Positions 4,024-14,378 of a DNA stretch of 36,785 nt are shown in pieces. The stretch is from a virus. A program made the position numbers and the translations under genes. The stretch lies in IMG/VR virus record IMGVR_UViG_3300025110_000048, positions 1 through 36,785 of that record. The stretch is one strand, 5' to 3'. Position 1 is the stretch's first letter, and every line of letters starts with the position of its first letter. The notes under the pieces were generated by a model. The model was not told where the DNA came from and did not search any database. It saw nothing but the letters and a program-made list of their open reading frames with translations.

Positions 4024-4100
4024 CAACTTTGATAAAATTAATTTATTTTTCTCAGTGAGAATTCTCAAAGTCAGCGAGTAGAAACAATATTAATAATATG

Positions 4101-9726: not shown

Positions 9727-10431
9727 ATGATCGAAGAAAGAGTTATTCAGCAGGAGTCCGTGACTCCTGAAGAACAGCCCGTGGCTACACCTGAAACTCC
9801 TACACCACCTGCTGCACCTGAAGTTCCCACAGTTCCTTTAGCTGAATTTGAAGCTTTAAAGCAACAATTAGCGGAAAAGGAAAAAGCGTTCCAAAACGCT
9901 AAAAGTAAAATAGGGGAGTATTACGATGATCGTAAGAAAGCCTTAGAAGATCAGGGTATGTATAAGCCTCTTTGGGAGGATGCGAATAAAACAGCCCAGG
10001 AAAAAGATAAACGGATAACTGAGTTAGAAACTGAGTTAAAGACAGCAAAGGAGCAAAAGCAAATGGAGGCGACACGTACTACAGCGATGTCTGCTTTAAG
10101 TAATGCTGGAGCGATTAATGCAGGTCAAACATTATCACTTTTGCAAGATAAATTGCATAAAAGTAGTGATGGTAGAACTGTTATTTTAAGTGGTGGAGTT
10201 GAGCAGGACTTAGGTACTTACGTTAATAATTTGAAGAACCCTGGAAGTGGATGGGAACATCACTTTAAGGCGAGTAATGCTGCTGGTATGGGTGCAAAGC
10301 CTAGTCCAACATCTAATGTTGCTCCTGGGTCTGAAAACCCTTGGAAGACGGGCAATCTCACTCAACAAATGGTATTATCTAATCAAGACCCTGATTTAGC
10401 AGCCGTGCTGCAAAAAGAGGCATCTCAGTAA
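9727..10431 (+). CDS. Capsid scaffolding protein
   Basis: 234 residues. A Pro/Glu/Thr-rich disordered N-terminus (residues 1-40) leads into a long charged coiled coil (AEFEALKQQLAEKEKAFQNA, then TELETELKTAKEQKQME) and a C-terminal region with MVLSNQDPDLAAVLQKEASQ. This order and the position directly before the capsid gene are typical of phage scaffold proteins, which template procapsid assembly and then leave. No protease motif seen. A perfect hairpin (9751-9769) lies inside its 5' end. Confidence 0.75.
   Translation: MIEERVIQQESVTPEEQPVATPETPTPPAAPEVPTVPLAEFEALKQQLAEKEKAFQNAKSKIGEYYDDRKKALEDQGMYKPLWEDANKTAQEKDKRITELETELKTAKEQKQMEATRTTAMSALSNAGAINAGQTLSLLQDKLHKSSDGRTVILSGGVEQDLGTYVNNLKNPGSGWEHHFKASNAAGMGAKPSPTSNVAPGSENPWKTGNLTQQMVLSNQDPDLAAVLQKEASQ
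9751..9769 (+). other. CGT-loop hairpin inside scaffold 5' coding region
   Basis: CAGGAGTC-CGT-GACTCCTG is a perfect 8-bp stem with a CGT triloop, at codons 9-15 of the scaffold gene. The same AGTC-CGT-GAYT core recurs twice after the gene. Possibly a translational or RNA-processing element; inferred. Confidence 0.5.
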
Positions 10432-10439
10432 CATCTAAG

Positions 10440-10481
10440 AGTCCGTGATTTGATGATGTTATTTCTAAGTCCGTGACTTAG
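10440..10481 (+). other. Two further CGT-loop hairpins before the capsid gene
   Basis: AGTC-CGT-GATT (10440-10450; pairs only with a G-U wobble) and CTAAGTC-CGT-GACTTAG (10465-10481; perfect 7-bp stem). They lie in the 81-bp gap between scaffold and capsid and share loop and closing stem with the hairpin at 9751. No T run follows, so they are not standard terminators. Confidence 0.5.
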
Positions 10482-10512
10482 GCAAGTAAACCGTAATTCT
10501 TAGGAGAAAGAA

Positions 10513-11592
10513 ATGGCAGCCCCGTTTCAGAATTACTCTGGCGGTGTCCTTTTAGCAGACATCGTAAAGAGGAATAATTTAGCTCGCTATGTCCAAGAGG
10601 CAATTAAAGAGCGTAGCCAATTTGTTAAAAGTGGAGCTGTTGTAAGAAACAGTTTCTTAGATGCTAAAGAAGGCGGTACACGCATCCAAGTTCCTGAGTT
10701 CAATCCAGTAGCACCAACTGAAGAGGTGATGACTGGGGCGGCTAACTGGGGAACTTCAACTGCTGGTTACTTAACACCACAGAAGATCGGTACAGCAACA
10801 CAAATTGCTTCTATCGTTCACAGAGGTTTCGCATACGCTGTTGACGACATTGCAATCTTGGCTGCTGGCGAAGATCCAATGTTAGCTATTCGTAATCAGT
10901 TAGCTGATGCAATCAACAAGTTGAACAACGCTCGTTTGTTCTCACAACTTGCTGGTTTATTCGGTACTGCTCTTGCGGCTAATAAGCTTGATGCTGCAAA
11001 AGCTGGTACTGGTGCTACTGAAACAAACTTCTTAACAGCTTCTACTATTGCTCAAGCTCGTAACAAATTGGGCGAGCGTGGTGAAGAGCCAGATCTATTG
11101 GTTGTTCATCCAGCAGTTGCTTACTACCTATATCAGGTAGGAATGTTAACATTCTCTACCGCAGCACTTGCCGCTTCTGGCGCAGTGACTTGGGGTGGCG
11201 GTGGCGTTGGCATCGGTGCTAAAGAAGTTGGTCAATTCGCTGGCTGTAGAGTCATCGTTGACGAAGCTGTTAACACTGTTCAACCTGGTGCTACTGGTCA
11301 TCAGATGGAGTACTACTGCTATCTATTGAAAGCAGGAACCATCATGGAAGGTGTTCAGCAAGATCTAAGGATTGAAGCTGATCGCAACATCTTGTCTAAA
11401 CAGAATGTACTTTCTGTTGACTATCACACTGCGTATCACGTAATGGGTACTAAGTGGGTAGATGCTGGTGACAACCCAACAAACACTAACTTAGCTACTG
11501 CTAATAAGTGGGCAGCTACTTACGATCCTGATTTGATCCCTGCTGTTCAGATCACAGTTAACACACCTCTCGATGTAACTAATATCTCTTGA
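10513..11592 (+). CDS. Major capsid protein (HK97 fold)
   Basis: 359 residues, MAAPFQNYSGGVLLADIVKR, with the best Shine-Dalgarno in the region (AGGAG 10502-10506), fitting high expression. Consistent features are an N-terminal helical arm, a long spine-helix candidate (EDPMLAIRNQLADAINKLNN), the P-domain/A-domain stretch PDLLVVHPAVAYYLYQVG, and a late GCRVIVDEAV strand followed by QDLRIEADRNILSKQNVLSV. No cleavage of a delta domain is evident, in line with a separate scaffold gene. A terminator follows at 11618. Confidence 0.85.
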   Translation: MAAPFQNYSGGVLLADIVKRNNLARYVQEAIKERSQFVKSGAVVRNSFLDAKEGGTRIQVPEFNPVAPTEEVMTGAANWGTSTAGYLTPQKIGTATQIASIVHRGFAYAVDDIAILAAGEDPMLAIRNQLADAINKLNNARLFSQLAGLFGTALAANKLDAAKAGTGATETNFLTASTIAQARNKLGERGEEPDLLVVHPAVAYYLYQVGMLTFSTAALAASGAVTWGGGGVGIGAKEVGQFAGCRVIVDEAVNTVQPGATGHQMEYYCYLLKAGTIMEGVQQDLRIEADRNILSKQNVLSVDYHTAYHVMGTKWVDAGDNPTNTNLATANKWAATYDPDLIPAVQITVNTPLDVTNIS

Positions 11593-13148: not shown

Positions 13149-13579
13149 TGAATTATCAAAAAATTAGAGCACAAGTCGAGAACCCATTATTAACTGCTTT
13201 TGGAGCGTTAAGTCCTGCGGTTCCTGTCTTCTTTGACAATATCACTGCTGCACCTCTTAATAGCACTACTGAATATGTAAGAGTAAATGTTACATTTGGC
13301 TTAACAAATGATCCAACTTTGACATCTAGTATTGATAACGCTAGGGGAGCAATTGTAATTCGTTGTTTCAGTAAAAAAGGTGAAGGGCCAGCAAGAAATC
13401 AAACATTAATTACAACTGCTGTTGATGTATTAGAAACGTTAAATGACAGTACCAAAGGGACTACTGGGACATATTTTAAGGTCGGATCTATAGATGGGCC
13501 AAGCTTTTCGAGTAATGAAGACGCACCATTGTTCATGGGAACAATAGAAACTTCATACGTTGCTACAGTTTTGAGCTAA
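13148..13579 (+). CDS. Tail terminator protein (DUF4128-like)
   Basis: 143 residues, MNYQKIRAQVENPLLTAFGA. The PLLTAF opening, the beta-hairpin YVRVNVTFGLTNDPTL, RGAIVIRCFSKKGEGPARNQ and the helix LITTAVDVLETLND fit the small alpha/beta tail terminators that cap the tail tube after polymerisation. Position immediately before the canonical tail tube gene supports this. It contains the single YTGGARCGT copy (13201) outside the early region. Confidence 0.7.
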   Translation: MNYQKIRAQVENPLLTAFGALSPAVPVFFDNITAAPLNSTTEYVRVNVTFGLTNDPTLTSSIDNARGAIVIRCFSKKGEGPARNQTLITTAVDVLETLNDSTKGTTGTYFKVGSIDGPSFSSNEDAPLFMGTIETSYVATVLS

Positions 13580-13607: not shown

Positions 13608-14378
13608 ATGGCCGTTACATGTTTATCTGGCACATCAGGTGCTCTCTATTACAAACCTGCAGGAACAACAGGAACTTTTGGTACTGGTGATGTAACCATT
13701 GGTACTGAGACAATGGTTGTTGAAACTTATTTGAATCTTAAGGTTGGAGATCCAGTTAAGTTTAGTGTGATTGATTCTTCTACAGGTGGAGCAGGAACAG
13801 GAACTGTACCTGCTGGATTAACTGCTGGAACAACTTATTACATTAAAACTTATGTAGCAGCTTCTGGAGCAATGACTGTTTCAGCTACTAACGGAGGTTC
13901 TGCTGTAAACCTAACTGATGTAGGAACAGCAGCAGCTCCTAATGAATTTCAAGTTGCTTATGCTGCTTTTGAATCAGTCAGTCAAGTAAGTGAGTGGTCT
14001 TTCGAGATTGAAAGAGCTGAAATTGATGTAACTACAATCGGTGGTGATCCTGGTCAGTACGTTCCATTTAGAAAGTACATTGCTGGATTTGGTGATGGTT
14101 CAGGTAGTGCAACTGCTTACATGACAAATGAAGATGCTTCTCTTTCTAACCGCATGATTGAAGATGTTCTTCAGCGTCAACAAGTTGGTGCAGCGTTCAA
14201 ACTTTATACAGACCGTGTATTTAGTGGTGGAACTGTAAGTGACACTCTTAGTCGCTTTATCAGCTTTGATGCAACATTAACTTCTGCTTCTTTAGGTGTT
14301 ACTCCTGATGATGCACAAGCAGTAACAGTTAATTTCCGTCCTGCTGGCGTTCCAACTTTCGATTTTAGCCGTTCATAA
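13608..14378 (+). CDS. Major tail tube protein (canonical position)
   Basis: 256 residues, MAVTCLSGTSGALYYKPAGT. The C-terminal half has the tail-tube core (VSEWSFEIERAEIDVTTIGG, then GDGSGSATAYMTNEDASLSN). An inserted domain at about residues 37-110 has the pattern LKVGDPVKFS...LTAGTTYYIKTYVAASGAMTVS, a small beta domain common in phage tube and fiber proteins. It follows the tail terminator and precedes a terminator and the tail chaperones, the usual place of the main tube subunit. The three other tube-like genes here (7678, 24087, 24566) are probably minor. Confidence 0.8.
   Translation: MAVTCLSGTSGALYYKPAGTTGTFGTGDVTIGTETMVVETYLNLKVGDPVKFSVIDSSTGGAGTGTVPAGLTAGTTYYIKTYVAASGAMTVSATNGGSAVNLTDVGTAAAPNEFQVAYAAFESVSQVSEWSFEIERAEIDVTTIGGDPGQYVPFRKYIAGFGDGSGSATAYMTNEDASLSNRMIEDVLQRQQVGAAFKLYTDRVFSGGTVSDTLSRFISFDATLTSASLGVTPDDAQAVTVNFRPAGVPTFDFSRS

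Follow-up and report, generated by a model that had tools for sequence, protein, structure and literature searches.

How is the synthesis of a phage scaffold matched to that of its capsid? The two must be produced in balance and, to our knowledge, the post-transcriptional side of this balance in tailed phages is unsolved at the level of RNA sites and protein residues. The question is raised here by a 36785-base virus record, analysed over its whole length (the window), in which small hairpins sharing one loop cluster around the scaffold gene.

The hairpins belong to an SPP1-like head module (Table 1). The nearest named relatives of the window are Marine virus AG-345-A17, S-2L, S-H1, KBS-S-2A, and MED4-184, which are cyanophages and marine single-cell records. 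Its capsid is homologous to SPP1 gp13. The scaffold has no PHROG or Pfam match at 1e-3; by tblastn it matches the "minor structural protein" GP20 of S-2L (4e-17). Comparison with solved structures gave no relevant match in sequence or fold. The head scaffolding protein profile phrog_206 is matched by S-2L (9.4e-9) and by two further loci, L231 (1.4e-23) and L293 (4.1e-28). The window scaffold shows no direct match to phrog_206 and reaches 97.5% in a profile-profile comparison with the scaffold group that matches it, which indicates that it is homologous to the scaffolds of the distant groups described below. A search of cellular and prophage contigs for scaffold relatives returned only three loci, L588, L589, and L590; the L589 match spans only 31 residues and that of L590 is weak. 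L588 is a close phage relative with a MED4-184-like scaffold, UGU loops, and R at the position called 0 below; its single-cell contig bears the label Alphaproteobacteria AG-426-I04.

Table 1. Features of the head-gene region, in window coordinates.
Feature	Position	Strand	Description
Head module, SPP1-like	scaffold 9727-10431, capsid 10513-11592		terminase, portal, scaffold, capsid; within the 36785-base virus record
Scaffold protein gene	9727-10431	+	ORF, 234 aa
Hp1, CAGGAGTC-CGT-GACTCCTG	9751-9769	+	scaffold codons 9-15; 8 Watson-Crick pairs
Hp2, AGCC-CGT-GGCT	9776-9786	+	inside scaffold gene
Codons of scaffold residues 38-74	9838-9948	+	predicted helix, AlphaFold2 model, mean pLDDT 66.8
Hp3, GCAGC-CGT-GCTGC	10399-10411	+	scaffold 3' end, codons for LAAVL
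Hp4, core GAGTC-CGT-GATTT	10427-10463, core 10439-10451	+	core of 5 pairs, 2 of them G.U
Hp5, TCTAAGTC-CGT-GACTTAGG	10464-10482	+	before capsid gene; 10465-10481 gives 7 pairs, 8 with a G.U
Major capsid protein gene	10513-11592	+	phrog_247 major head protein, 8.8e-44

The window contains five hairpins with a C-CGU-G top: two lie where the scaffold gene begins, one where it ends, and two ahead of the capsid gene. A sequence-only reading of the locus had picked out three of them (Hp1, the Hp4 core, and the seven-pair stem of Hp5) by their shared core, and all three are present where it placed them. It had overlooked Hp2 and Hp3, as well as the outer stem of its middle hairpin: the Hp4 core is the tip of a longer predicted hairpin, whose 9-pair outer stem (10427-10435/10455-10463) contains the scaffold stop codon. 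The three were also said to flank the scaffold coding region, which is true of the two outside the gene and not of Hp1, which lies within it. The core word GTCCGTGA is, as that reading had it, absent elsewhere in the window, with exactly three copies, at 9756, 10441, and 10469 (0.31 expected; at least three copies in 1 of 100 shuffles). Predicted folding compared with that of shuffled sequence gives z -3.2 for 9745-9792 and z -2.9 for 10392-10490. Rfam at its gathering score yields no match on the window, nor on S-H1, MED4-184, or KBS-S-2A. In the early region of the window, a TTCTC-AGT-GAGAA hairpin at 4049-4061 has the same C-NGT-G top, and G016 has two copies of it.

Comparison with relatives indicates that the hairpins are under selection as RNA, because their sites are kept with compensating stems, the Val codon of the loop is GTG, and G.U pairs outnumber A.C. 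Nearly all of the 80 capsid relatives with enough upstream sequence have at least two C-NGT-G hairpins before the capsid gene. Among 136 relatives with both genes, the hairpin places are fixed and most stems are altered by compensation; in 27 longer contigs the hairpins are concentrated at the scaffold start, the scaffold end, and the scaffold-capsid border, with a few scattered elsewhere. Loss of loop or pairing in close relatives, named by the sequence-only reading as what would speak against it, is not observed: when 3 or more of 4 Watson-Crick pairs are demanded, Hp1 is present in 136, Hp2 in 118, Hp3 in 104, Hp4 in 131, and Hp5 in 136 of 137 loci. Pairing and double changes, counted with no stem requirement and set against the maximum of 1000 shuffles, are 0.868 and 53 (maximum 39) for Hp1, 0.975 and 5 (maximum 5) for Hp2, 0.987 and 99 (maximum 53) for Hp4, and 0.951 and 36 (maximum 18) for Hp5. 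At Hp1, Hp4, and Hp5, both the pairing and the covariation that had been proposed as a check are above all shuffles; at Hp2 no covariation is shown.

The suggestion of selection on RNA, made from the window alone, is well supported by pair types and codon choice. At stem positions 1-4 of these four hairpins, again with no stem requirement, G.U is found 64 times and A.C 14 times; under the strict criterion, for all five hairpins, the counts are 59 and 5, and 96 and 46 over positions 0-6. The Val columns of the Hp1 and Hp2 loops (V12 and V19, located by protein alignment) are encoded by GTG in 136/136 loci each, in 56 and 60 distinct contexts, and the other Val codons of the same scaffold genes are GTG in 130 of 1246 cases (10%). 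The AAVL codons of Hp3, likewise protein-located in 57 distinct contexts, are GCA in 54/57, GTG in 57/57, and CTG or CTC in 56/57, and the third base of the second Ala codon, which is the free loop letter, is variable. In the Hp1 region, the encoded residues differ among relatives (ESVT, TPVA, and others) and the hairpin is kept. Within the redundant set L004-L159, 166 of the 549 triloop hairpins with at least 6 Watson-Crick pairs are of the C-NGT-G type (38 distinct sequences), and C-NGT-G hairpins number 166 on the coding strand and 9 on the opposite one.

Two variations were observed in the window family. At the L064/G011 border, the usual hairpins are replaced by three GACGTGGCTGTGACCATC-like units (C-UGU-G top, extra A), and the scaffold coil there also diverges from the family. 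Seven of the 27 contigs (G002, G004, G007, G008, G014, G017, and G021) have a CGGGC-NGT-GCCCG hairpin roughly 3055 to 3141 nt past the start of the capsid gene and about 40 nt 5' of the counterpart of window 13608-14378, which may be the major tail gene. This hairpin is absent in the window near 13570, and may be a further site of the set.

Since only the first base of the C-NGU-G loops is free in the window family and the bases read elsewhere hardly vary, no helix can be tied to the loop within it, and a code for this family rests on homology with more distant cyanophages. The KBS-S-2A-like and MED4-184-like groups have capsids ~30% identical to that of the window and two hairpins between scaffold and capsid. 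Their loops are UGC, UGU, CGU, UAC, AGU, UUGU, and UUGC; the loop is common to the sites of one genome and differs between genomes, close relatives included. KBS-like genomes have two further hairpins at the scaffold start, one directly before the ATG, with its loop 11-13 nt from it in the long genomes where listed; this scaffold-start pair is missing from the MED group. The pair at the scaffold-capsid border is the most widely kept, occurring in each of the three groups that have hairpins there. When the hairpins of 41 non-redundant KBS-S-2A-like genomes are picked blind to the loop, the site on the 5' side of the scaffold and the capsid leader have the same loop in 35 of them, against a mean of 16.6 and a maximum of 26 in 20000 shuffles, which leave relatedness in place; the other site pairs agree in 27/41 and 28/41, each above all 20000 shuffles. 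Folding of the L231 hairpin regions is not better than that of shuffled sequence (z 0.08 and 1.10). In a KBS-S-2A subclade (L190, L214, L225, L240) the scaffold start lacks code hairpins; in L190 and L214 the ATG is preceded by a different inverted repeat. The scaffold of S-2L begins with a pair of C-AGT-G hairpins, but the GC-rich relatives of this phage keep no single loop. Copies of ccacTGCgtgg elsewhere in long KBS-like genomes were considered as own-code sites and dropped, lying inside a coding stretch.

The loop obeys a rule with residues of the scaffold. At position 0, the residue after a conserved L/M, R/K goes with a U-ending loop (66 scaffolds) and E/D with a C-ending one (61), in 127/127 scaffolds. 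This rule was derived post hoc from these 127 and then set down as a prediction before two further scans, both scored on the proximal hairpin. The first covered 146 loci in which the capsid start was present; 18 had no full scaffold, 93 had been seen before, and the 35 new ones gave 35/35 (32 C, 3 U). The second, by the conserved C-terminal part of the scaffold, returned 83 loci, of which 82 comprise 7 truncated, 24 already seen, and 51 new, with one new locus unrelated; it gave 50/50 (36 U, 14 C), and in 18 of the 51 loci the loop-blind distal pick is another hairpin. The further loci are relatives, many of them close, and represent 18 and 25 distinct motif/loop combinations with 23 new motifs. 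Overall, the rule holds in 212/212, and in 7/7 independent supported pairs on the capsid tree. Hairpins adjacent to the scaffold start with a Y-NNN-G triloop also obey it (65/65 and 53/53). The charge switch pairs with the same base in both distant groups, in triloops and tetraloops alike, and the near-isogenic L231 and L239, with capsids 98.8% identical, combine EAMRKKN with UGU and EAMDKKN with UGC, respectively.

Other positions follow other features of the loop. At +1, A/T goes with tetraloops (31/31) and R/K with triloops (181/181). At +4, F/H goes with a middle A (19/19) and never with G (193). At +8, K/S/R goes with CGU (6), A with AGU (1), and D with the U-first loops of the YK background (85). 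At +12, T goes with a first base C in 6/6, and is also found in two U-first loci of another background. These rules are weaker than that of position 0: the middle base and the first base are each backed by only 3 independent supported pairs, and loop size by 4. The 127 training rows are also split by position -5, where E goes with U and S/R with C, as perfectly as by position 0, and the RNA-touching residue could therefore be either of them; the two may form a coiled-coil pair. In the L231 model, motif residues 26 to 38 lie within a helix spanning 15-44 (mean pLDDT 75), which would place positions 0, +4, and +8 on one face.

In both distant groups, tree comparisons show that the loop follows the N-terminal helix of the scaffold, and not the capsid or the remaining scaffold. 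To account for the four loops of 75 KBS-like loci, the capsid tree requires 10 changes and the scaffold tree 4. In trees of single windows, the KBS-like loop class can be placed with 2 changes for scaffold residues 26-80, the minimum for three classes; elsewhere in the scaffold a window requires 7-10, and in the capsid 9-13. The MED4-184-like class needs 4 on scaffold residues 1-60, the minimum for five classes, 6-8 on the rest of the scaffold, and 9-13 on the capsid. Across 26 long genomes with 12 usable genes, columns splitting perfectly by the last loop base are found only in the scaffold (3/254, against 0/2807 in the other 11 genes); two other genes, each with 3 U genomes, match the scaffold in the low number of U/C changes required.

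Taken together, the scaffold protein probably recognises these hairpins in the mRNA that encodes it and thereby tunes the synthesis of scaffold and capsid. Its N-terminal α-helix would read the loop with one face running antiparallel to it, position 0 contacting the last base, +4 the middle base, and +8/+12 the first. Free scaffold would occupy its message both where the scaffold gene begins and ahead of the capsid gene, tuning both syntheses, most likely by repression when scaffold is in excess; this direction of control is a guess, with the position of the sites and the physiology of the P22 scaffold as its guides. The hairpin set would then be an RNA regulon of head genes, its loop code covarying with a single helix of the scaffold. 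The chances are about even that this helix carries a code for RNA triloops and tetraloops that can be read and can evolve, with R/K or E/D at position 0 for U or C, F/H at +4 for A and not G, +8/+12 for the first base, and A/T or R/K at +1 for loop size, the helix being swapped and all hairpins rewritten together, which would keep the head-gene control of co-infecting relatives apart. The scaffold of the window may act in the same way: by position, its predicted helix of residues 38-74 is a candidate match, not at residue level, to the reading helix of the related phages.

Other readings differ in what binds the loops, or to what end. Scaffold reading might serve to gather the protein on nascent scaffold and capsid messages, starting procapsid assembly during translation and not repressing it. 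The border pair, being the best kept, would suit this role, and the SPP1 scaffold is a stable dimer (PMC6813328), which fits paired hairpins. However, the hairpin of the KBS group directly before the scaffold ATG lies where binding should hinder initiation, and assembly is possible as the main role but appreciably less probable than tuning. Alternatively, the capsid or an unseen small phage protein could read the loops, the scaffold helix merely travelling with adjacent scaffold-start hairpins: only tens of codons separate these from the helix, so that they would recombine with it, and a third factor would match the capsid-leader loops. Yet in the MED group, without scaffold-start hairpins, the capsid-leader loop tracks the scaffold N-terminus; on capsid trees the loop requires 9-13 changes, no capsid column splits perfectly, and the charge switch is paired with the same base across groups and loop sizes, which makes another protein reader unlikely. 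A kissing or antisense RNA is less needed as a reader because the residue-base rule exists.

The sequence-only reading had proposed a bound protein or an RNase; the evidence points to a protein, namely the scaffold, and away from the RNase. Its further suggestion, a role of the hairpins in setting the ratio of scaffold to capsid expression, is plausible. Small stable hairpins are common at gene borders, where these are found, as would be expected of mRNA processing or stability through a host RNase or RNA-binding protein. A shared host factor, however, does not predict loops in concert within a genome and different among close relatives, stems of 4-9 pairs are short for RNase III, and no T run like that of an intrinsic terminator follows the window hairpins (sequence 3' of 10482 read), leaving this role quite improbable. 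The hairpins are also palindromic as DNA, and Hp1 and Hp2 lie 21 nt apart, about two DNA turns, so that a cruciform, a mobile element, or DNA-binding sites come to mind; the excess of G.U over A.C, the strand bias, the covariation of the arms around an asymmetric loop that stays, and the few copies elsewhere in the contigs render reading as DNA hardly credible.

Tuning of head-gene synthesis by the scaffold has a precedent in phage P22, whose unassembled scaffolding protein lowers its own synthesis post-transcriptionally. Both cases involve a tailed-phage scaffold controlling its own synthesis; we know of no RNA site or reading helix for P22, whereas here specific candidates for both can be named, and they differ from phage to phage. 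Literature searches found no report of RNA control by a phage scaffold. A candidate RNA site and protein residue are both named here, naturally variable across many genomes, and peptide-hairpin binding is therefore testable with the cultured cyanophages S-H1, KBS-S-2A, and MED4-184. If the contacts hold, they would amount to a protein-RNA code that is natural and very small, from which orthogonal pairs of hairpin and peptide could be drawn. SPP1 itself shares the order of scaffold (gp11) before capsid (gp13) and a homologous capsid, and the 3522 b of its head genes that were scanned contain no C-NGT-G hairpin. The iron-responsive element (CAGUGN) resembles the C-NGU-G pseudo-triloop; here, however, there is no bulged C below and no conserved bulge in the stems of relatives, the first base is C, U, A, or G in place of a fixed A, and other groups use GC or AC. 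The logic, and only the logic, recalls the recognition helix of zinc fingers, in which positions about one turn apart face successive bases in antiparallel fashion, although here an RNA loop is read and there is no finger. In the coat operators of MS2-type RNA phages, a structural protein represses translation from a small hairpin at the start site, and in the KBS group a hairpin likewise abuts the scaffold ATG; the present case differs in a dsDNA phage, a scaffold and not a coat, several sites per message, and a triloop apparently read by one helix. Similar in its means of recognition is the pair of lambda N peptide and boxB, where a short basic α-helix recognises a hairpin loop in phage-specific pairs, whereas here the setting is that of late head genes and not antitermination, and the key residue for C-ending loops is acidic.
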